The notes under the pieces were generated by a model. The model was not told the DNA's origin and searched no databases. It was given only the letters and a program-made list of their open reading frames with translations. Shown in pieces: positions 18,444 to 49,800 of a stretch of 64,000 nt of DNA (positions within the stretch are counted from its first letter, which is position 1; every line of letters starts with the position of its first letter). Source of the stretch: Isoetes taiwanensis (lineage: Eukaryota; Streptophyta; Lycopodiopsida; Isoetales; Isoetaceae); assembly GCA_021234155.1 (NCBI GenBank), contig JAJEKV010000014.1:15534872-15598871 (forward strand). The letters are read 5' to 3'. The position numbers were made by a program, and so were the translations under genes.

Positions 18444-19442
18444 TCAGGCCCGGCCCCTTAATTGAAGGTCAAACCAATCGACATCGAATATGAAGGTCTT
18501 AAAATTGCCACCAACATCCACCTCCATTATAGTCTTTAACCTCCCGACCCAATCACAGGTGGCTTCCTGACGATTACGATCGGCAACACTTGATTGAAAC
18601 TCCATCGTGAATGATGCCATGACTCTGCAGTCACAAGTCTTCTTGTGTATGTCAAGAGAACTCACACGATAGTGGGTCCCATGCCACCATATCGAGGAGT
18701 AAGATATATACTGTCAAAAGCACCATTAATGTCAATAGATACAATAACATCAAAAGAAAATACTCGATTTCGACATCAACATAATTTGTTGCAACTACCT
18801 TTTTCATGACACCTTGTGTGTATGCCCATTCCGTAGCTGTAATATACTCCCCCTTGTAATATGCATCGGTCAAAAGCCTGTAAGGGTTCATATCCATCAG
18901 GGTACGGGGCTCGTCTATTATGTCGTCTCCATTCATGCCTCTTCTCTTCCATTTCTTCCTTTGCGTTCTCATAACGAGCAATCCATTTTGCCATTGGTGC
19001 CGAATTGTAAAGAAGAAATTGATTAACCTTAATGATCATATCAGGCGGAAATGACTTCTGCATACCATTGCCTTCTGCCACTACCCCCACAATCTTCTCG
19101 TCCCCTTCATCACTCCATAAGCGAGGTGCATCTGGATGTACGACGGAAATATATTCTGTCATATAGAAAAGTGACTCTTTCGCAAGCCATCCCTCTGCCA
19201 TACTACCTTCAGGACGTGCTCTTTGACGCACCATATCCTTCAATACCTTCATAAACCTTTCCAAGAAAAACATCCATCTCGCATGTACAGTTCCCGCGAG
19301 CTCCACTTCCTCAATAAGATGTACCAAAAGATGGGTTTGACTGTCAAGAAAGCTCGTAGGAAACTCCTTCTGCCATTTTCACTTTCATCTCTTCAATTTC
19401 GTCTTTCGGTATAGTTTTTTTACACATCCACCTATGAGGTCC

Positions 19443-19473
<31 letters not shown>

Positions 19474-21768
19474 TAGCCACAAATAAAATAGACGGGGGAC
19501 CACTAAATCAACATGGCCTTTGATAGGGCACTTATTGCCTCCAATGGTCCCTTGTCTAAAACTCCCCTAAAGGTCAGGGGCATGAAGAACTGCATGATCC
19601 AAACACCAAATATAAGTATGGGTTACATTTAATAGTAGTGCATATATGTGGACTTCAATTGCTTACATGCAAGAACTTATGCCAGTCATGGGACTTTAAA
19701 CCAGTCAGCTCCCCAGTACTTGTGAATGCGGTTCGCAATGATTGCATATAACCAGTTGGTGTTCTAAGGGCCCTTAAATCATCATAAATAGCTCGATGGT
19801 CAGCCCTAGCAATAACCCATTTTGCCGGAGGAAGTGGTTGCCCTTCACCTCGGATCCATGCCTCTTTCTTTGTATTACTTACCTTAAGGTCCATCCTGGC
19901 ATTTGTTGTGTCTTTTTGACCAAATACATGCTTCCATAAAGAGTTTCCCACGTTCTTGAAGATATGCATCGGGTCTAAAAGGTGTTGAATCAATAGGTCG
20001 GTCCAATATGGTAGTCTATAAAAAACAGACTTCCTTTTCATATTGGCAGTAAAGACTTCCTCCTCTGCGGCTTCCTCGCCACCACTGTACAATTCCTCAT
20101 CCTCCTGTCTAGGTCGGCTCACGACCTCCTCATTCTGTGTGTGCCCCCTCATGGATTTCCCCTTGTGGATTTTCCCCTCTTCCTTCTTATCCCAACGCTC
20201 ACCCCATTCTCGTATGGTAATTATGCTTGGTGGTTCTGTATAGTCTACAGTGCCATCGAATTGTGCACGCTGCTTTACTGAAGGGGTGCGTGAGCGGCAA
20301 ATACTTCCTAAAACCCTCGTATACTACTTTCTTGGATGCTTAGAGTGACGGTCTGCAACTTTTCCCCACATATCATGCAAGGGAAGTGCCCCGATGTCTT
20401 AAACCCGAAACACTTTCGGCAAGCCCGGGAAAGTCATGCATAGTCCACAATAGTATACCTCTAAGATTAAAAACGCCATTTTTATGTGCATCGTGACCTG
20501 AATACATGTTCCACAAAGGCGTTAACTCATCCACAATTATTCTTAGGTACACATCTAAATTACTTGGTTTTTTCTTCCCAGGTATCAATAAAGTCATAAT
20601 AATGTGCCCACTCTTCATCAACAACCATGGGGGTATGTTGTAGTTCACTATCATCACTGCCATGTAGACCATGCAGTCGATTGTGTACCATATGGGTTTA
20701 CGCCATCGGTGGCCAGGCCCAAACGCACGTTACATGGTTCTTTTCCAAAGTCAGGCCATGTCGCATCGACATGCTTCCAAGCTGCACTGTCGCTCGGGAC
20801 TCGCATCACATCATCACTAGATGCATGTGTAGCCGTGAAGTCCATTAGGCTAGCCAATGCCTTGCAACGGAACATCAACTTTAACCTATAGAATAAATTA
20901 TAGGCAACATATAAGTACCGAAAATAAGTGAATTTACAACTATTTGTAAGAAGTGGTGATGCATATACCTTGGGATTATTGCCGTTTTTCCCTTTAGGTC
21001 ATTCCTGTATCTCGGTTCATTACATACAAGATAATGAGTGGACTTCTCATGCTCGGCAGGGGGATAGAAGATCATACAATCATTTGGACATGCATGTATG
21101 ACTTTATAACCAAGGCCGGTCGCTTGAATCATTTTCTTAACTTGAGATCTGTCGGTAGGCATATTGTTCTTCTCTGGAAGGATCTTCTCGTGCAATAACC
21201 TGCGCATCTAAGAGTGGTAAGATAAAAGATGGAGATGGTGGTAAGATAGAAAGACTTGATAAGTATGTCACCTCAATAGAGCAGAGACACTTGCATTGCT
21301 CCACTTGAACTTGGTTTGAAGATTGAGAATTAGCAGGCACGCCGACAAACGAGAGGTTCGAGACGCAGGAAATAACTGTGTTTCTGCTTCGATAACAATA
21401 GGGTCATCGTCAGTAGGACCAATCCTCGAAGGGTATCCCACATCTTCTGCCATATCCTCTCCACCACCATCCTCGACATCATCTAAATCAATATCAGGTA
21501 ATTCTTGAAGAGTCTGCAACATATCGAGCATCGGCTCGTCACGAAAGACTTCGTTCTCGGGTTCGTCAATAGTTTCATCCTCTTCATATTGATCGTATGC
21601 AATATCTTCATATTGGTGCGCTGTGGCTTGAAATTCACGACGATAGGTTTCCCTTTGCCTGTAACTTAGAACTAATGGATCGTGATGGAGACCGCTCTGA
21701 ATGAGTTCATTAAACAGGAGTAACGTATTAACCATCATGTCAAATAATGTAATAAGTATAAAATACAT
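18444..21768 (-). pseudogene. CACTA (TNP2-type) transposase, broken
   Basis: Minus-strand fragments appear in the order expected for a CACTA transposase. 21768-21268: acidic stretch, then FPASRTSRLSACLLILNLQT as at the start of Transposase_21. 21207-20881: HACPNDC, the hallmark of the family. 20878-20654: WKHVDATWPDFGKEP and NVRLGLATDGVNPYG. 20672-20373: YNIPPWLLMKSGHI, LIPGKKKPSNLDVYLR and LLWTMHDFPG. 20152-19655: PYWTDLLIQHLLDPMHIFKN, then KSHDWHKFL, the start of DUF4218. 19327-18776: HLIEEVELAGTVHARWMFFL, ERFMKVLKD and PEGSMAEGWL (DUF4218). 18665-18444: IFDVDWFD (DUF4216). The fragments lie in different frames. Some gaps may be introns, such as the A-run at 19447-19472, but several are frame breaks, so this copy is probably inactive. 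Confidence 0.85.
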
Positions 21769-21855
21769 ACAACCATTTGCATAGACTCACGAATGACAAA
21801 AAAACATATTTAAAAAAAAAAATCCTCTTTATTCCTTTTTTTTAGTACAACAATA

Positions 21856-22935
21856 CTATTGTTCCATCTCAAATGGGAGAGGTCTATCATAGCGATAGTT
21901 GATGAATAACTCATCTCCAATGTTTATGCTTTTAATAGCACACACCATGATATATCTGCCTTTTACATATCTTGTAAAAAAATCTTCCTCCCCTCCTTGA
22001 CACTCTAAAAATTCACAATTGCATCGCTCACGGTTGTCAATAGAACTGTTGATGAACCCTGCAATATTGCCATGAACCCCTGGCCGACCATCAATAAACT
22101 TCAACTCCTCATCACATGCCCCCGCAGCTATCGACGCAGCATTGGAATTCATTCCATAAATCCTCATACGCCAAGCATATTTAGTCAAAGTTTGCCAAAG
22201 TTTTCCAATCGTACTCAGGACCTGCATATGGCATTAATGGAATGTGGGTTCCTCGCTCCACTTCTATACGCGTGCTGGAGATAAAGCCGAATCCAGCTTC
22301 TGGACAAATGCGGCTCCGCATAATGATGTATCTTCTTCCCCAATAAGCAAATTCTTGATCCATAGGGATAGGTAAGTCTACTGGCCACAAGCCAAATGTC
22401 TTGCGGTGTCTAACAAAGGGTCGGACTAATCTTTGCAATTCTTCAGGAATTTCACGCTCGGGCAGTGAGGCCAAGCATTCTTGGGAAATGTGCGACACAT
22501 GCAATGTTCTCATGATAGCCCTTCGTGTTCTTTCACGCAGGGGAACACTCAGCGTTGAGCGGCACCCATCCACATTATTGATGAATCGGGTTACTGCTTC
22601 GGTTTCATATGTCTCTATGGATAACATTAAACCAAAATCCACATCTAGTTTGGAGGAGACACCAGCACCATCTACCTACATATTTAGATATCATAAATAT
22701 CTTGAATATATACTTGAACTGGGAGAGATACTCTTAAAAAAAAACAAAAAAACAAATAATAATTGTATACCAACTTGATATCCATGACGAGCATCAGATC
22801 TGGTGGGTTGTTCAAATGTACCAAATCTTATCAGATGGTCTTCAACAACCGTTCTAAGTCGTCTCTTCAGCCCCATACATCTTTTACAATCGCAAACTAT
22901 TTTGTCCCTCTACCAATTACAAAAGGTAAGTACTA
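21856..22935 (-). pseudogene. SET-domain ORF inside the CACTA-like element
   Basis: On the minus strand, a first exon (about 22935-22770) encodes KIVCDCKRCMGLKRRLRTVV followed by a VEDHL motif, like the CxCxxC Transpos_assoc segment of CACTA proteins. It ends at a plausible donor (GTATAC), and a TATGTAG acceptor opens the next exon at about 22676. From 22642 onward, PEAGFGFISSTRIEVERGTH and YAGPEYDW match the start of a SET domain (GfGl.a...I..Gt....Y.G). GVHGNIAGFINSS, RCNCEF and INIGDELFINYRYD (22080-21870) match its C-terminal half (GN..rFIN...C...GeEL...Y). A one-base frame change is needed near 22185-22215, where the first frame meets TAA. The usual NHSC is replaced by NSSI. An AATAAA motif follows the stop at about 21830. 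Lysine methylation is the known SET activity; activity here is not shown. Confidence 0.7.
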
Positions 22936-35035: not shown

Positions 35036-35163
35036 GCGATGGAACAAATAATATGAACCTACTTTTGGCGCCATTGACCAGCTTATAATGAAATTGTATT
35101 CTGAAAGACGTGTTTATATCTGGCATGTCTCAAAGAAATAAGTAGCCCTTTGTAGATCTGGCT

Positions 35164-35922
35164 ATGGCGGACGAAGCTCTGCTCGGCTACGACGGCGAAC
35201 AAGATCTGGAGGTACCGCGGAGATCTGTTTCTCGCATTTCCTCAATTCTGAAGGCGCGCAAGGTAGCAGGCCAATGGCAGCTTAAATCCGGTAAGCAGCG
35301 TGATTCTTGGGATATCAGCTCTTCTTTAAGGCCAGGTTCATGGCGGAAGCGGCTAGGAGATGTCCTGGAATCAACCCCAGCGCATATTGTGATCGTAATG
35401 CTGCTGCTCGTCGATCTGCTGGCCACGGCACTCGATCTGCTGCTCACAATACACAATACGAGCGCCAATCTTAGGGAATGCACAGCGGCAGTGTATTCCT
35501 GTCAGTGCGATGGGGGCGATTTCAGCGGCCACAAGTCATGGGAATTTCTGCACTGGGTTAGCGTTGCGATCCTCGGCGTGCTGCTCCTCAACGTTTTAGG
35601 GCTAATGGTCGCATTTGGCCTGGCTTTCTTCAAGCACCCAGGATATGTGCTGGACCTGTTTGTTGTCACCACGGCGCTGGCTCTTGAGGTGTTCTTCCAG
35701 GCGGATACTGCAGGCCTGCTCATCATTCTCAACCTTTGGCGGATTGTGCGTGTAGCACACGGGATTTTTGAGGTCACCGATGAGGCCTTGGAGAAGGAAA
35801 TTGATGAGTTGCAGGATCGGCTCGAGGATGCTCATGCCCGTGAATTGAAAGGCAAGGATGAGCGGATTATGGAGCTGGAATCAGAGCTCAATGCCATCAG
35901 AGGCCAGTACCAATATTCCTGA
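35164..35922 (+). CDS. Voltage-gated proton channel (Hv1/HVCN-like)
   Basis: One exon, 252 residues, with four membrane segments as a stand-alone voltage sensor: S1 about 74-96, S2 128-152, S3 160-178, S4 183-201, then a predicted coiled coil at 205-245 that would dimerise the channel. Against animal Hv1, Asp84 in LLLVDLLA matches the selectivity Asp of S1, Asp164 (VLDLF) and Glu175 match the S3 acids, and His130 matches a zinc-site His of S2. S4 reads ILNLWRIVRVAHG. The first gating Arg is Asn190, Arg193 and Arg196 match the second and third, and His199 stands at the following Asn. The S2 charge-transfer Glu is Asn143. The channel conducts H+ outward across the plasma membrane on depolarisation. 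No introns are seen. Its neighbours are transposons, so context adds nothing to its role. Confidence 0.92.
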   Translation: MADEALLGYDGEQDLEVPRRSVSRISSILKARKVAGQWQLKSGKQRDSWDISSSLRPGSWRKRLGDVLESTPAHIVIVMLLLVDLLATALDLLLTIHNTSANLRECTAAVYSCQCDGGDFSGHKSWEFLHWVSVAILGVLLLNVLGLMVAFGLAFFKHPGYVLDLFVVTTALALEVFFQADTAGLLIILNLWRIVRVAHGIFEVTDEALEKEIDELQDRLEDAHARELKGKDERIMELESELNAIRGQYQYS

Positions 35923-41710: not shown

Positions 41711-43334
41711 TGTGACGTTCCAGCACAGTATACGGTCCCAGGACGTATATTGTACTTGCCCCGTCACGCGTACACGCCACCCCGACTGACGTGTACACCA
41801 ACGTGTAGCCAGGCGGGTAGCCCCCAGGGGGCAACTTGCAAGGAATGTGCATTTATTAATGTGCACATTTAACCATGTGCACATTTATCTAGGTGCACAT
41901 TTTCCCATGTGGACACTTTATGCCAAGTGGGCCATACCCAAGTGTGCAATTAATGTGCACATTTACCAATGTGCACATTTATTAAAGTGCACACCTTTCC
42001 ATGTGGGCACATTTTACCACCTAGCCATTAAAGGCAAGTGGGTCCATTCCCAATTATCCCACATGCCAAAAGGGGATAATTGGAAACCCTAGCCAACCCC
42101 TTGTCTATTTAAGAAGGGAAACCCTAACTTGCCCATTTTTCGTTTCTAGGGTTTTAGAGCTCTGTTTTGGCTGCCCCAGGGGTCAAAACCGCCTCCCAGA
42201 CTCTGTCTGAACGAATTGCCCCATTAGATTCGAGCAGTTTAGCAGGATGGTTGAGCTCAGGTCGGGAGGAGGAACTCAAGGATCAGGTATTTCGTCAATT
42301 TAATAGCCTAAACCATCTTCTAGTCATTAAATCAGTAGGTTTAGCCTATTAAACTGCCCATAGCAGCCCTCTAGATCTTTAGATACCAGACTCTAACTAA
42401 AGAACCTAACTCTATGATATAGATTAGATCTTGTTCTTTAGTTCTTCCGTGATGTATATGGATGATGTATCTCTATGAACTCCTTGTCTTGGGAAGGGGG
42501 GTAGAGACCTAAAGCTTGGTAGTAGATGCTCCTAGATTAGCCTCTCTAGCACACTATAGATTCGGCCTGTGTACAAGAGCCACACCTGGTTGTGGGTGAA
42601 GGGGCCAGACTGGCTAAGAAGGAGGTTCGTGTCCCGACCCTTGAACGATCCCTCTGGTGTGTAAGGCCTACCGGGGATCATTGTGACTAGGTCTAATGGC
42701 TTACTACTGAGTGTGGGTAAGGCATGGGCTCGACACCCGTGAAGTGGTGTACACTTTCCAGTGGGTTCATTCGAATAAGGGCAGTGGCCCTCTAGTCACC
42801 TTGGGTCAGCATGTAGACCTCTGGAGGGAGTGATCCCTACCTGCCCCATCGGAACTGGGGAGATGCAACCCAGGAATAGCCCCTTCGGCTATGCCTCCGA
42901 CGGGCTACAGTCAGGTCCCAACAGGGGCAGATGGAGTGGACAACCCTATGCCATGTTCTTATGCCAGCCAAATCCATTGCCATGAATTCTGTCTGCAATG
43001 AACTCTGGAGATCCAAGCCGTCAGTCATCCCTACGAGTCTGAGCCTTGGGTAGGACCCCTATGTATGATGCTGATCGTTGTCTATGCAGATGTTGATGCC
43101 CCACCCTTCGAGGTGGGTGTGTGTGTTTATGTTGTATACTGACATGTATGTTTACGCTTCCGCAGCTAGGTAGGCCCCCGGGAGGAGGGTAAAATGACCC
43201 TTCACTCTTCCCACCGGGACTCGTTCGTGCAAAGCGATGATTGTGGAGGGCCCCGTGACGGATGGAGCTGGTATGGGGATGAACTCACAGATATACGGTG
43301 GGGTGCACCGTGATCACGTGTAGGGGACGTCACA
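41711..43334 (+). mobile_element. 5' LTR of a gypsy-type retrotransposon (1,624 bp)
   Basis: Starts TGTGACG and ends CGTCACA, a perfect 7-base terminal inverted pair, and is directly followed by a primer binding site. Inside are a cluster of GTGCACATTTA units (41848-41985), a TATA-like CTATTTAAG at about 42105-42113 and a polypurine-like GGGAAGGGGGGTAGAG at about 42493. A related but diverged LTR begins at 62559. No 3' LTR for this element is found within the window. Confidence 0.85.
41848..41985. repeat. GTGCACATTTA repeat cluster in the LTR U3
   Basis: GTGCACATTT or GTGCACA(T/C) occurs at least five times at ~20-bp or longer intervals, each GTGCAC being palindromic. It lies upstream of the TATA-like CTATTTAAG, where enhancer repeats of LTRs usually lie. 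Confidence 0.65.
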
Positions 43335-43335
43335 G

Positions 43336-43347
43336 TGGTATCAGAGC
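43336..43347 (+). other. Primer binding site (initiator Met tRNA)
   Basis: TGGTATCAGAGC one base after the LTR end. This is the usual plant site for priming minus-strand DNA synthesis with tRNA-iMet. Confidence 0.9.
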
Positions 43348-43540: not shown

Positions 43541-43607
43541 GTCTCACACGTCGCGCCAGGACAGATAATGAGAATCTCATTTTCGGGCTGGGCGCAACGT
43601 GTGAGAC
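43541..43607. repeat. 67-nt foldback, type A, copy 1
   Basis: GTCTCACACGTCGCGCC at the left pairs with GGCGCAACGTGTGAGAC at the right (17 bp, one mismatch). A second stem, ATGAGA with TCTCAT, lies inside. It is 202 bases before the type B copy at 43743. Confidence 0.9.
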
Positions 43608-43742: not shown

Positions 43743-43809
43743 GTCTCACACGTCGCGCCAGGACAGAAAATGAACTTCTCATTATCGGTCTGGGCGCAAC
43801 GTGTGAGAC
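43743..43809. repeat. 67-nt foldback, type B, copy 1
   Basis: The outer arms are those of type A; the centre differs (ATGAACTTCTCATTATCGGT). It lies 77 bases before the TATAAATAG box that precedes the H3-like ORF. Confidence 0.9.
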
Positions 43810-43886: not shown

Positions 43887-43967
43887 TATAAATAGATCTA
43901 GAACCCCCCCATTTCCGCGTCCCTTCCTTAGAAAATCTGCTCTCGTCTGCTAAGGCGATTTTCCGGC
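43887..43967 (+). promoter_or_regulatory. TATA box and conserved leader before the H3-like ORF
   Basis: TATAAATAG at 43887-43895, then CCCCCCATTTCC, then TCTGCTCTCGTCTGCTAAGG followed by CGATTTTCC. The same order and nearly the same sequence precede the next ORF (45865-45936). The ATG lies ~110 bases after the TATA box. This looks like a duplicated internal Pol II promoter with its transcribed leader; it is far from the LTR promoter. Confidence 0.65.
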
Positions 43968-43996: not shown

Positions 43997-45264
43997 ATGG
44001 CAAGGACCAAACAGACGGCAAGGAAGCCCCGCCGACGCGGATCGCCCAGCGCCAGCGACCCCGCCCTGATTCAAAGGATACTCCAAGAACGCCTTTTTCG
44101 GCAAGGCGAATCTTCATCCAGTGAGGAGGCAGACTCGGACCAAAGCGACCGGACGGAGGTCCTAGACGACGAAATTTCGTGACATGATGCACCGATCCTC
44201 AAGAAATCGCCGAGGAGGAAAGAAGGAGCAAGGAGGAAAGGGAGCAGAGGGGACAGCCAACCGTCGAGGAACAACTCGAAGCTTGGGCCCGTCTGCAGGA
44301 AGCTGAGGAGAGGGAGGAGCAGCGGCAGCCGAAGCTTAGCCCTGCTGAAGAAGAAGACCTCGCGGCGTTCATCAGCGAGTATGAAGCCAAAGAGCGCCGC
44401 CGAGAGAGGAGGACAAAAAGACGGGAGGACAAGCCAACCACAGCTGGCGAGCCGAAGAGAAAGAAGGCCAAAGGCATTAAGGCGGGCACCAGAACAGTTG
44501 TGAAGGTTGGTAAGCGAGCGCAGGGTCCCGTCATCAATGAGCCATCAGCGAAAGGGATTCCCACCTTCGGCCGAACTTTAATTTCGGACGAGGATTACAT
44601 TCCCAATACTGAGGGGGCAAGCTCTTCGAAACCCCCGGTCGTGGAGAAGGAAGCACCTCAGCAGGTGGCACCTAAGGAGGAGCAGCCCCCACAGCGCCGG
44701 CCCCCCACCATTCCCCGACGGGATAGGGTCAAAGCCCCACGCCACAACGCGGGCGACGCGGATAGACCCCTGGCCAAGGTCTATCAGAAGAAGATCAAGG
44801 AGCACAACGCCTACATGGCGAAGTGGGAGGCATACAACGCTTACTACCAGGAGCACAGGGTGAGAACAATTGAAGGCGGACGCCCAACAAAAAGCCAGAC
44901 CCTGAAGCCGCCACCACCGAAGCTCAAGCCTCCCAGAGCACTAGGAAAGAAGCGGACCAAGAGAAAGCAGAAGGAGCAGAGAGCCCTCAAGGAAATCTGG
45001 CACTTCCAGCGGAGTTACAGACTCTTGATCCCCCGGGCACCGTTTCAACACTTGGTCCGAGAAGTCATGCAGGAGTACAACACGGACATGCGGGTGACCG
45101 ATGAAATGCCGCTTGCGGCCTGGCAGAGGCAAAGAGAGGCGAAAATAGTGCAGCATTTTGAGGATTCGACGGCCTGCACAGTTCGCGCGAAAGAACGCCC
45201 CTGAACTTCTTGTCTCTGTGCCTTGATGTATTTGGCCAGAGACATCAAGGGAGAACGCCCTTGA
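43997..45264 (+). pseudogene. Histone H3-like protein encoded within the retrotransposon
   Basis: Translation from ATG 43997 begins MARTKQTARKPRRRG: ten residues identical to the N terminus of histone H3, including Lys4 and Lys9, then divergent. This frame stops at 44180. The next frame is open from 44188 to 45204 and encodes a long Lys/Arg/Glu/Pro-rich linker. It then gives RALKEIWHFQRSYRLLIPRA, PFQHLVREVMQEYNTDMR and HFEDSTACTVRAK (about 44980-45195), which follow H3 helices alphaN, alpha1 and alpha2 residue by residue (compare REI..YQ.S..LLI, PFQRLVREI.QDF.TDLR and FEDTNLCAIHAK). After a TGA at 45202, the same frame reads YLARDIKGERP and stops at 45262, matching alpha3 (DIQLARRIRGERA). So it is a complete H3 architecture with an inserted ~330-residue linker. 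It lies sense to gag-pol, between primer binding site and gag. Confidence 0.88.
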
Positions 45265-45408: not shown

Positions 45409-45475
45409 GTCTCACACGTCGCGCCAGGACAGAAAATGAGAATCTCATTTTCGGGCTGGGCGCAACGTGTGAGAC
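45409..45475. repeat. 67-nt foldback, type A, copy 2
   Basis: Same length and nearly the same sequence as 43541-43607, including the inner AAAATGAGA / TCTCATTTT stem. It starts 145 bases after the H3-like reading frame ends. Confidence 0.9.
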
Positions 45476-45607: not shown

Positions 45608-45674
45608 GTCTCACACGTCGTGCCAGGGCAGAAAATGAACTTTTCATTATCGGTCTGGGCGCAACGTGTGAGAC
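45608..45674. repeat. 67-nt foldback, type B, copy 2
   Basis: Same as 43743-43809 with a few changes. The A-to-B distance is 199 bases here and 202 in the first pair. Confidence 0.9.
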
Positions 45675-45864: not shown

Positions 45865-45936
45865 TATAAATAGGTCCCCCATTTCTCAATTAGCACCCTA
45901 CAAGTTTGCTCTCCACTGCCAAGGCGATCTTCCAGC
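45865..45936 (+). promoter_or_regulatory. TATA box and conserved leader before the second internal ORF
   Basis: TATAAATAG at 45865-45873, then GTCCCCCATTTC, then TTTGCTCTCCACTGCCAAGG followed by CGATCTTCC, matching 43887-43967. The ATG chosen for the ORF lies ~120 bases on. Confidence 0.65.
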
Positions 45937-45986: not shown

Positions 45987-47042
45987 ATGGCCACTGCTGA
46001 CTTCAGGCGATGGTACAGCGCCAGTGCCCATGCTGCCGAGGCGGATGTCAATGACATCTTCCGAGTCTTTGGGAGAGAGATAGATTTCCAAGCCACTTTG
46101 AATGCAACCCCAGCATATAGACAAGTTCTAGCAGAGTTCCAAGCTAGGGTAGGACCCTCCCTCGTTCAGCTCCCCCCTTGCATAGGCTACTTTGTCCCCC
46201 GCCCATCCCTTCAAGCAGCCTTGGGTGATGTCCCCAACATCGCCAAGTATTTGACTAACAAGGCGCAGAGACTGCCAGACTACATGGTCCTGACAGTTGA
46301 CAGGACCAAGTATTTCTCCTACACCGCCGCCCTAGCTATTTTCTTATCCCACCGCGCCGAAAATCCAATGGGGGCAAACTCTATCCCTCCGATGGAGGTG
46401 GACCCCATAGCAGCCCAAGCAGCAGAGTGGATGCTTTTGCAGTATCAGCAGGAGCAAGAAGGAAGAGAAGAAGAAGAGGAGTCGGACGATGACGAGTACA
46501 CGGAGCTCGACTCAGACGAAGAACGGCGCTAAGCAGAGGAGGAGCTAGCCAACATGGAGCGGAGCCGGCAGACCCTCAGAATTGCTCTCCCACTCGGGCT
46601 AGGCATCACAAGCCTAGCCCCCATCATCATCAACGAAGAGGAGTATTTACTCCTCAGTGACATCCAGAACCTCCCTGAATGCAGGGAGAGGGAGCTCAGA
46701 CTTGATGAGTTGCTGCACCAACTACGGCAACAACCAGAAATGGACGACTTCATCGTCCGGGGAGCCTCAGACTTCCCGCTTCAAGTGCGAGAAGCCGACA
46801 CCTACACAGGGGAGTCGACGTCTGATATCCAGGCTTACAACAGCATAAGACAGATTATGGAGGCCGGAGACCTGCCATCGGAAGAAGAGTTCCTCGCCAT
46901 CCAGGAACGGATGGGGATCAGAGGCAAGACCACCAGCATCCTGATGCCCAGGCCTTCGACACCACCTCCAACAAGAGGAGCAGGAATCGACCTCAGGCGA
47001 GTCGACGCCACAATTGAAACTACCGGGACCTCACTGAGATAG
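45987..47042 (+). CDS. Second internal ORF of the retrotransposon, unidentified, acidic
   Basis: From ATG 45987 (MATADFRRWYSASAHAAEAD) the frame is open for 181 codons to a TAA at 46530 and ends in a strongly acidic tail (EEEEESDDDEYTELDSDEER). The same frame reopens directly after the TAA and runs from 46533 to 47042 (next ATG 46554, MERSRQTLRIALPLGLG). It may therefore be one ~350-residue protein with a single stop, or two ORFs. I recognise no domain. It is not a histone by eye. It shares its promoter-like module with the H3-like ORF, which suggests joint control. An acidic tail of this kind would suit histone or other basic-protein binding, but that is inference only. Extra ORFs upstream of gag are known in some plant gypsy lineages, such as Ogre/Tat. 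Confidence 0.55.
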
Positions 47043-47109
47043 AGGTCGACGAACACGCCGGGCGGCATAGAGCTGGAGGCCAAACAAGCGGAGAAGCTCC
47101 AGCGACACA

Positions 47110-47565
47110 CAATGACAGGTTCTGAGGTACTACCTGCCCCTGCTGCGGGATGGAAGAATAGCGGTAGTACACCGCAAGTTCAGCCCCCGGGGTGAAGAAG
47201 GAGTGTTCATGCTTATTGCACTCTCAGGCTTCGGCAGGCACGCTCGAATAGCGGCAAATGTCGACTATGCTGTCCTAGTCAAGAGAGCAATGGCACTTGA
47301 CCTCTTCGACTTCGCCATACCCCATCGACGACAGGCGAGATTGGCGGTGACCGCGGCCTGCACATCCGACCGCAGGGTGGAAGAGCTGGCGAGAGCCTTG
47401 CAGGGCGGCTCGTCAGCAAACGTCTTCGGGAACTTGGGTCATTCGGTAGGAACGGCCCAAGTTAAGAAGTTCCTTGAGGGACAACCCATCTTACCGGCGA
47501 TTTCAAGATTAGTTAGACTCTTGATCCCGGAGACTTTTTGTACTAAAATATTATATAATATATGA
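47110..47565 (+). CDS. Open stretch downstream of the second internal ORF, unidentified
   Basis: An open frame (ATG 47212 or earlier) with YYLPLLRDGRIAVVHRKFSP and RRVEELARALQGGSSANVF. It is in a different frame from the ORF before it and may be its C-terminal part after a frame break. No domain is recognised. It ends in an AT-rich stretch (47545-47640) that separates this block from gag. Confidence 0.4.
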
Positions 47566-47684
47566 ATATAATTTCTCTTGCACTTTAAATGTTTTGTTGA
47601 TGTATTTTGTTCCACAACTATGCCAACAAACCACTTATAATGCAAGAGAACAAGTAAAACTAACCATATAGCCATGAATTACTT

Positions 47685-48236
47685 GTGCATGCAGCTAGAG
47701 GCCTAGGCTCAGGGGAACGACAACGCCGAGACCACGTGGAAGAACAGAGTCCGCCCAGGCCACCCCCGGCAAGGAACCTATTTGAGGAATTTGGACCCAT
47801 GACCCCAGAAGAAGAAATATCTCAGATGAGGACGGACCTTGAGCAGATAAAGGCTTTGCTGGCCGCACAAGCAGGAGCGGGTTCGGTGGGCAACGCTCAG
47901 CTGCCTCAAGCATCAGCCCGGAAAACAGGAAGGGACAAGAAGAGGAGCAAGAGAAGGAGGTCCTCCAGCTCGGAATCCTCCGACTCAAGCTCCGATTTGG
48001 ACTCCGACTCCGAGGAAGAGGAAGAGCAAGCCCAGGACCGAACAGATGGAAGGCAGAGGAACACTGCAGATGGAAGGCAGAGGGATACCACAGATGGACG
48101 ACAAAGGGACACAAGAACCTCTGATTACCAGAAGAAGGTAGATTCTGCATTTGGAAATGTTTGGAAGGCCAGGAAGCTCGAAAGCAAATTCTCAAAGCGA
48201 GAACAGTCGCATGGAGGCAGAGGCTTGGCTCGATGA
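47685..48236 (+). pseudogene. Gag-like ORF of the gypsy element
   Basis: A 184-codon stretch with a Pro-rich start, a predicted helix (EEEISQMRTDLEQIKALLAA), a Lys/Arg and Ser-rich segment (KKRSKRRRSSSSESSDSSSD), an acidic run and three DGRQR(N/D)T repeats. The reading continues in broken frames to about 48960, where CFKSFQPGHIDK resembles a damaged CCHC zinc knuckle. Position before protease and RT supports gag. Confidence 0.5.
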
Positions 48237-49205
48237 GATGAGCGAATCACGCAACGCCTATGGTATGAAGGACAAGGATAAAGGCGTGGTGGCAACAAAC
48301 AACCCGAAAAGGAGCAAAGACGCATATGGTGGAAGGGGTATGCAAAGGCCCATGGCTTGAGAAGGGATGCTTGCAGGTTCAGGAAGTTTGCTAAAGAGTT
48401 TGCTAAAGCCTTCAAGCGCCATTACGTCCCAAGAGAGCACAAGTCCAAAGATGATGCGCCAGTTCTATAGACTGCAAATGTGGAAACAAATCAATCCAGA
48501 AATATACGAGGAATTCATGAGACTAAGGCTTTATCCGCCAAAGTTGGGCTTAAAAGCATGCAAAGGGAAAGCTATATTGAGGGGCTGAATGATGAGATCC
48601 GCAAAGCTTGTAAGGGCAATAAACCCTAAGACAAGATGTCGGCGAGTCCAAGGCAATAAGTTTGCAAGGGATGTGGCCTCGTAATAGCGGACAGAGGCGG
48701 CAGTATATCGTGACAAAGGCAAGGCAACAGAGGAGCTATAGCCCCTAGGGCAGCCAGCCGGGTCCAAATAGAGCCCCATATGGTGGCAATCGGGGGAAGC
48801 AGCCCGGAGAAAAGCAGGTGTCCTTCAAGGACAAGCAGGAGGGTCAAACTACTCCAAAGCAAAGGCGATCCTTTTGCGTGGCTATGCCCAAGGAAAAGAG
48901 ACAGAGTGCATAGAAAAGCAGCCTTTGCTTCAAAAGCTTCCAACCAGGCCATATAGACAAATGAACCGCCTTACGCCATGAGCACAAACATAGCGTAGTT
49001 GGGGATTGGGACATTCTCGTCCCGACAACGACGGCCGAGGAAGCCCGCGACTACATCCGTGGTGAGTGTCATATCTTTTTCCGCAATAGACACATAGCAA
49101 GCGCGAGAGCCGTACAAGGTAATTTCTACAAGAGGGAAGGCCAAGGCCAAATCTTTCATAGTCCCGATAGACTCGTGAAGTAGCCATAACTTTGCATCCC
49201 CCGTA

Positions 49206-49490
49206 ATGGTTGAAATGTTGAACTTGAAACCACCGTCGGGCCAAGGCCCGGGCCGCCTTAGCAAGTGGAGCAAGAAGGGCGCATTTCAAAAAGCAAGAGA
49301 ATTAACTTCGACATTGACTTGCCGTGGATTAATATCCGTGATGGGGGCAGAGGTAATGGGCATTGGCAAGTATGACCTGATCATAGGAATGGAGTATCTT
49401 GGACCAGCAGGGGCCATCATCGATTGTGGGAAGCGGAAGGTGACCTTCCCAACGCCCGATGGCAAGATCATTGAGATCACAGGTGCATAA
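49206..49490 (+). pseudogene. Retropepsin (aspartic protease) remnant
   Basis: GKYDLIIGMEYLGPAGAIID then CGKRKVTFP matches the C-terminal half of the gypsy protease (FDVILGMDWL...AVIDC..+.V.F). The catalytic D(S/T)GA motif would lie upstream, where the frame is broken, and is not seen. Confidence 0.7.
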
Positions 49491-49529
49491 GGAGTGAGCA
49501 GGTAGCTTATATCTTCAAGCTTGAGATCC

Positions 49530-49800
49530 AAGAGCCGGAGCCAGAAGAAGGTAAGGAGGATGAGGGACTCAGCAAGTTACCTAAGCAGGTAGCTAACCTG
49601 ATCACGGAGTTCCATGATCTCTTTCCAGATGAGATCAAGCAGCCCCCTCCTTATAGGGGAGTCGAGTGCGAGATAGCACTCGAACCGGAAACAAAGCCGA
49701 CAAGTAAGGCTCCATACAGAATGACGACGCAGGAGTTAACGGAGCTAAAGAAGCAATTGCAGGAGTTGCTCGACCTAGGCTTCATTAGACCTAGCGTAAA
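49530..49800 (+). pseudogene. Reverse transcriptase, N-terminal start only
   Basis: Reads LITEFHDLFPDEIKQPPP, ECEIALEPETKPTSKAPYRM and LKKQLQELLDLGFIRPS, which is the entry into a Ty3/gypsy RT (H.I.L.....P....YRM.P.E..ELK.QL.ELL..GFIRPS). It breaks off at about 49800 before the catalytic YxDD. Sequence beyond is unrelated AT-rich DNA, so the element was cut by deletion or insertion. Confidence 0.8.

Follow-up and report, generated by a model that had tools for sequence, protein, structure and literature searches.

A predicted H3-type histone encoded ahead of gag in Ty3/Gypsy chromoviruses of Isoetes taiwanensis

A histone H3-like gene, H3L, is carried by a hAT DNA transposon of the fungus Pyrenophora tritici-repentis (PMC3538342, 2013). 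According to the available part of that report, its N-terminal tail is altered, its fold fully matches neither H3 nor CenH3, and the 26 very similar copies "may have undergone drift". DNA viruses also encode core histones, including a bracovirus H4 with an extended tail, which goes into host nucleosomes, and individual viral H3s whose tails are long; in the accessible text of a review the extensions, nudivirus Orf1 excepted, span 35-121 amino acids (PMC9145170). The extra ORFs of plant LTR retrotransposons most often lie between pol and the 3' LTR, as stated in the available sections of another review (PMC7264820), and the available text on an orchid Ty3/Gypsy element describes an m6A demethylase domain (PMC9289625). 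A retrotransposon-encoded histone was not found in the accessible portions of the openly licensed literature on element-borne histones. The term "retro" is absent from the available text of the viral-histone review (PMC9145170), and "histone" from that of the additional-ORF review (PMC7264820), from the available main text of the I. taiwanensis genome paper (PMC8566536) and from the main text of the I. sinensis genome paper (PMC10541799).

Here we describe ORF1 of an Isoetes element. Like H3L, it is an H3-like gene with an altered N-terminal tail on a transposable element. Unlike H3L, it is carried by an LTR retrotransposon, with LTRs and gag-pol and not the terminal inverted repeats and transposase of a hAT element. 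Thousands of first-look candidates and four diverged families further set it apart, as do an N-terminal part of roughly 310-370 residues and measured purifying selection. As in the DNA viruses, a core histone appears to have been captured and its N-terminus extended (PMC9145170, available text). Similar to other plant LTR retrotransposons with additional ORFs, the element has an extra conserved ORF, but here it comes first (PMC7264820, available text). A first-pass annotation of the locus knew of no description of such an ORF; with the fungal H3L on record, that statement needs a qualifier.

ORF1 in the window and across the genome

The window is the whole 64-kb stretch analysed (G000:C952:15534872-15598871). 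Its copy of ORF1 is on the + strand and begins with MARTKQTARK at 43997, as the first-pass annotation had reported. This first segment (43997-44182), the H3-type tail and the start of a linker, is closed by a stop at 44180-44182 after 61 amino acids. A second segment in a different frame (44188-45204, + strand, 338 amino acids) codes for the charged linker and the histone fold and contains RALKEIWHFQRSYRLLIPRA, PFQHLVREV, TDMR and then HFED...C. Among the matches listed it is 63-86% identical to its relatives. The Pfam Histone profile (PF00125) matches residues 239-335 of this segment, at 44902-45192 on the + strand, with an E-value of 4.2e-11 (43.6 bits, cut-off 26.4). The profile search that had been proposed for the window copy thus recovers the fold, although helix 3 is rearranged and damaged. 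The H3 motifs had been described as following each other in order; this is so for the fold motifs of the second segment, but YLARDIKGERP (45226-45264, + strand, stop included), read from the sequence as a C-terminal H3 remnant in the same frame, lies beyond the stop at 45205-45207. With its frame shift, internal stop and damaged end, the window copy is decayed. A single-sequence structure model of its damaged fold was poor, with a pLDDT of 64.6 and a pTM of 0.24.

We searched the genome (1,658,258,908 bases in 1,110 contigs) with the Pfam Histone profile and with the second window segment. The profile search listed 150 matches of 8,705 rough first-look candidates and the segment search 120 matches, 119 of them scored, of 12,660; none of these are copy counts. 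Among the matches listed by the profile search, many end frames of 400-494 amino acids. Among those listed by the segment search, 61 of 120 are stop-free in a frame of at least 400 amino acids (hand count). The element is very abundant, with thousands of first-look candidates, many of which have one open frame. A search for intact copies had also been suggested; other copies in the genome have the ORF and some have it open.

Of the 40 copies fetched, the 20 taken from the segment search almost all have long frames, and the 20 taken from the profile search have long frames and high scores. They sort into four families, F1 (20), F2 (11), F3 (7) and F4 (2), with a common plan in which the extra ORF1 codes for a long N-terminal part and an H3-type fold. 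From the chosen start the protein is 400-461 amino acids long in 39 of the 40 copies and 355 in the other, L001. MARTKQTARK is exact in 15 of the 19 fetched F1 copies with a located start; the other families begin with MPRFKL-like (F2), ME..KQ-like (F3) and MANTKS (F4) sequences. Since the copies were picked by long frames and high Pfam scores, the fold conservation found in F2-F4 is biased.

We also picked loci solely by the DNA just 5' of ORF1, the leader, 20 for F1 (window included) and eight for F2. Homology to ORF1 follows the leader in all 20 F1 loci, a histone-fold match in 15, and MARTKQTARK is exact in 13 of the 19 non-window copies. One F1 copy is open from start to end, a count that is the same with one-strand and both-strand scans. 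All eight F2 loci have ORF1 homology and seven a fold match; the one open F2 copy is the query itself. In these less biased samples most copies have decayed, and open ones form the minority.

Two other readings of the locus were rejected. A chance ten-residue match is ruled out by the Pfam score together with the ORF1 homology and MARTKQTARK starts of the leader-picked copies. A host H3 pseudogene beside a retrotransposon is ruled out by the position of ORF1, the same in five of five long element pieces from four families, and by the ORF1 homology downstream of leader DNA at 20 of 20 F1 and 8 of 8 F2 loci.

The element that carries ORF1

The five long pieces (F1a, F1b, F2, F3 and F4) were chosen for an open ORF1, and it is open in all five. 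In each of them the 5' LTR precedes it and gag-pol follows, with gag recognised downstream in F1a, F2 and F4 and protease or reverse transcriptase (RT) in F1b and F3. LTR pairs are present in four of the five, with LTR-LTR K2P distances of 0.013 (F1b), 0.042 (F2), 0.035 (F3) and 0.024 (F4). Short direct repeats were seen by eye at the flanks of F1b, F2 and F4, with one mismatch in two of the three. Gag, protease, RT, RNase H and integrase domains were each found by Pfam in at least two of the pieces, and SH3 and chromodomain matches also occur across them, none of these necessarily in every piece. The LTR pairs, their distances and the domain set identify the elements as Ty3/Gypsy chromoviruses with low LTR divergence. 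A complete open gag-pol frame was not seen in any of the five pieces.

A chromodomain follows at the C-terminus of the integrase (PF00385, E 3e-9 in F2 and 1.5e-10 in F1a), with remnants found by tblastn in F1b, F3 and F4. Mapped by eye, it keeps W45 and lacks Y24 and Y48. It resembles in this the group II chromodomain chromoviruses, in which the integrase ends in an SH3-like domain and a chromodomain with W45 but not Y24/Y48; the available text on that group has no mention of a histone ORF (PMC3350952). A group II-like chromodomain of this kind gives no support to the idea that the element's own integrase directly reads methylated K9 in the F1 tail.

In the window, the 5' LTR (TGTGACG...CGTCACA, 41711-43334, + strand) was located by alignment to the LTR of a two-LTR relative, which it matches in two pieces at 88.9% and 83.7%. 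It is the only LTR of the element that was found in the window. The primer binding site, TGGTATCAGAGC (43336-43347, + strand), is presumably of the initiator-Met type; the same motif lies 3' of the 5' LTR in F1a, F1b, F2 and F4, four of the five long pieces, and was not found in the F3 piece. Downstream of ORF1 are a broken ORF2 (45987-47565, + strand) and a decayed gag and protease region (47664-49794, + strand), where the copy ends. The latter was recognised by its DNA match to F1a, in which gag was identified, up to 49099, and to F1b, in which protease was identified, up to 49794. RT or later pol was not found in the 64-kb window, including the DNA downstream of 49794.

ORF2 has related ORFs in the other families. 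It sits between ORF1 and gag, also in L045, L047 and L049, and is split into frames in the copies examined. No Pfam match above cut-off was obtained for the window or the pieces tried. By tblastn, ORF2 of F1 matches F2 and F4 with E-values of 2e-5 to 2e-8 and that of F3 matches them more strongly; F1 against F3 gave no direct match at 1e-4. ORF2 may be a partner of the histone ORF.

A 67-base hairpin, GTCTCACACGTCGCGCC...GGGCGCAACGTGTGAGAC, occurs four times on the + strand of the window; for the first copy the outer arms are 11 bp and the energy as RNA is about -40 kcal/mol. The copies form pairs about 200 bases apart, ahead of ORF1 (43541-43607 and 43743-43809) and ahead of ORF2 (45409-45475 and 45608-45674). 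Each pair is followed by a TATA-like TATAAATAG box, at 43887-43895 (+ strand) 5' of ORF1, where F1a and F1b have it too, and at 45865-45873 (+ strand) 5' of ORF2. The hairpins are at matching places in F1a and F1b and were not found in the F2-F4 pieces. The arrangement resembles a promoter or regulatory cassette that has been duplicated and would give separate transcripts for ORF1 and ORF2.

Elsewhere in the window, 18776-22675 on the - strand is predicted to belong to another element that bears a chromatin gene: a transposon with a SET domain of the histone methyltransferase type. The SET-domain ORF (PF00856, E 2.7e-6, 21856-22233) lies 5' of, and on the same strand as, an ORF with DUF4218 (18776-19378, - strand, Pfam E 1.3e-22), which we take to be a domain of CACTA-type transposons. 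The segment before SET (22181-22675) has 1,319 first-look candidates genome-wide, of which 150 were scored, and on its own no Pfam match. This type of segment and SET are fused in one frame of 272-273 amino acids in L094 and L095; L095 has SET, the middle ORFs and the DUF4218 region in the order of the window, and the L094 piece SET and the next ORF only. A 258-amino-acid open frame at 35146-35922 (+ strand) has weak similarity to Ion_trans (E 3e-4, below cut-off) and resembles a voltage-sensor or proton-channel protein.

The histone fold, its extension and selection

Five open copies match Pfam Histone with E-values of 7.9e-28, 6.1e-26, 3.2e-42, 2.1e-40 and 2.6e-41, and the best solved-structure matches of the fold are H3 chains. 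Over 93 columns, identity to a host H3.3-like protein is 83-86% in F2, 87-89% in F3, 87-88% in F4 and 43-56% in F1. Synonymous sites are saturated against the host H3.3-like gene in 40 of 40 comparisons, which makes the capture old, and are mostly saturated between the four families. ORF1 is not a canonical H3 of 136 residues with a full tail carrying K4, K9, K27 and K36. F1 retains H3 tail residues 1-9 only, and F2-F4 are H3-like from about residue 37, with no K4/K9 tail despite near-canonical folds. The element-made N-terminal part of F1 showed no homology to that of F2-F4 (hhalign probability 0.4%); the F2 part matches those of F3 (E 4e-40) and F4 (E 6e-37). The ORF1 product is, by these comparisons, an H3-type histone in which a long element-made N-terminal part replaces the normal tail. 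The first-pass reading of a captured H3 that kept tail and fold around a long charged linker holds for the architecture of the ORF, but the source of the F1 histone may instead be CENH3.

Purifying selection on the tail and fold of open copies, for which dN/dS had been proposed as a check, was found. Median pairwise dN/dS, leaving out pairs that were saturated or had a dS below 0.05, is 0.124 for the F1 fold and 0.172 for the F1 N-terminal part (190 pairs). The corresponding values are 0.043 (54 of 55 pairs used) and 0.119 (44 of 55) in F2, 0.019 (19 of 21) and 0.141 (21 of 21) in F3, and 0.007 and 0.116 for the single pair of F4 copies. Parsimony rate ratios were obtained for 19 F1 copies (L002-L020), leaving out L001 (355 residues, tail not located). 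The tail (codons 2-12) has a ratio of 0.072, the linker (13-250) 0.280, the stretches 251-285 and 286-326 have 0.086 and 0.264, and the fold has 0.122. The tail, which lay outside the query used to pick the F1 copies, is constrained about four times as strongly as the linker, with 8 nonsynonymous and 39 synonymous changes against 671 and 694 (Fisher P 9e-6; fold against linker, 1e-9), though the changes counted on a tree depend in part on one another. The folds of F2 and F3, copies picked by fold score, have ratios of 0.067 and 0.034, and their N-terminal parts, not used in picking, 0.19-0.32. The fold and the F1 tail are clearly under purifying selection, as is part of the N-terminal region. 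The F1 stretch at 251-285 (residues of L004 and relatives) is tyrosine-rich, VYQKKIKEHNAYMAKWEAYNAYYQ, constrained like the fold, and likely a binding motif.

That ORF1 is a functionless captured fragment hitch-hiking with the element would agree with the decay of most sampled copies. It is contradicted by fold medians of 0.02-0.12, domain-specific constraint and retention in four diverged families, unless the selection tests are artefacts of copy choice, and we consider it very improbable.

C110, H113, A114 and D123, which we take to be the H3-H3' set, and R72, R83, R116 and T118, presumably DNA contacts, are kept in all 40 chosen copies. F2-F4 equal host H3 at nearly every presumed contact position examined. 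In F1, position 63 is P and position 65 is A in 20 of 20 copies, and the letters at 40, 42 and 45 vary, with no contact residue conserved there; an F1 nucleosome may therefore be loose or absent.

We lean towards a reading in which ORF1 of this large chromovirus lineage encodes an armed H3-type histone that would pair with H4 and be placed in chromatin for the element's benefit. The fold would pair with host H4, and host chaperones would put the H3-H4 unit into nucleosomes or similar complexes on new element DNA, at target sites or both. The extension would take the place of the tail on which the readers and writers of host silencing act (F2-F4 lack a K4/K9 tail), and could provide a surface on which the element's own particle or integrase docks. 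In F1, a long arm would present tail residues 1-9 at its end, as bait or as a platform for readers. Entry of the protein into chromatin is probable and the likelier step. The benefit is more tentative: it could be escape from silencing, and tethering of integration is an equally tentative possibility. Because the fold and the long N-terminal part are common to all families, the general function should need both; the K4/K9 tail, missing from three sister families, is an F1 speciality.

The fold could also be used otherwise by the element, for free H4 binding or as a decoy. As a soluble mimic off the DNA, the protein might sequester H4, H3 chaperones or the readers and writers of K4/K9 and so weaken silencing. 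The F1 tail is at the N-terminus and constrained at least as strongly as the fold (0.072 and 0.122), and F1 departs from H3 at several DNA-contact positions, both in keeping with a mimic. However, F2-F4 lack the tail and have the most conserved folds, DNA contacts included, so that acting as a decoy through the tail cannot be what all families share; we regard a decoy as unlikely. Less likely again is that the histone compacts or protects element cDNA in the particle or pre-integration complex. ORF1 is co-linear with gag-pol and several DNA-contact residues are kept, which would suit packaging, but a cytoplasmic particle would require host H4, and we know of no retroelement that packages its cDNA with its own histone.

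A possible centromeric origin of the F1 histone

Plant CENH3s start with MARTK as well. We compared the families at ten diagnostic columns at which provisional Arabidopsis and rice CENH3 reference sequences agree against H3, with the loop-1 gap placed by hand. Against these references, 17 of 20 F1 copies have the CENH3-type letter at 7 of 10 columns and the H3-type letter at none, and the remaining three score 6/0, 6/0 and 7/1. F2 and F3 are CENH3-like at 0 of 10 and F4 at 1 of 10. When a maize CENH3, likewise provisional, was added, F1 was CENH3-like at 5 of 7 and H3-like at 0 of 7 columns in 17 of 20 copies. An earlier tree with two CENH3s only left F1 unplaced; its replacement, with fewer element rows and more references, has F1 and three provisional plant CENH3s on one side of a branch with support of 94/88. 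These residues suggest that F1 may derive from a centromeric H3. If so, its CENH3-like product could compete at or mark centromeric chromatin and perhaps guide the chromodomain integrase.

We hold this origin as possible but doubtful. The CENH3 references are provisional, and no host CENH3 stood out by coordinates or scores in the best 150 of 7,300 and 150 of 7,028 candidates. F1 aligns to H3 gap-free and lacks the extended loop 1 found in CENH3; its C-terminal KGERP is H3-like. By BLOSUM score three of four F1 copies tried are closer to host H3 and the fourth ties, so none favours CENH3. The branch is unstarred, and trees constrained to join F1 with F2-F4 (7.2 log units worse, p-AU 0.067) or with plant H3 and F2-F4 (8.1 log units, p-AU 0.059) are not rejected. 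Among the matches listed by the window-segment search, copies are scattered across many contigs. The solved-structure search is unable to separate the two histones, since the provisional maize CENH3 also best-matches an H3.3 chain. More tentatively still, the lineage could have acquired H3-type histones twice, a canonical H3 in F2-F4 and a centromeric H3 in F1, armed each with element sequence and used them as its own variants.

Some mobile elements use chromodomains to read histone marks. By making a histone of its own, a retroelement would reverse this relation, as it could write its own chromatin. The families are a natural test of what a parasite has to retain of H3 (fold, core contacts) and what it may exchange (tail), and of whether silencing is evaded by substituting the protein on which H3K9 methylation acts. 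If F1 is a CENH3, retrotransposons would be tied to centromere identity by gene content, beyond insertion site. F1 would then make a CENH3 competitor and pair it with its chromodomain integrase; it would provide its own chromatin address and take a direct part in centromere conflict. In Isoetes, a mobile element appears to make part of the DNA packaging of its host for its own ends.
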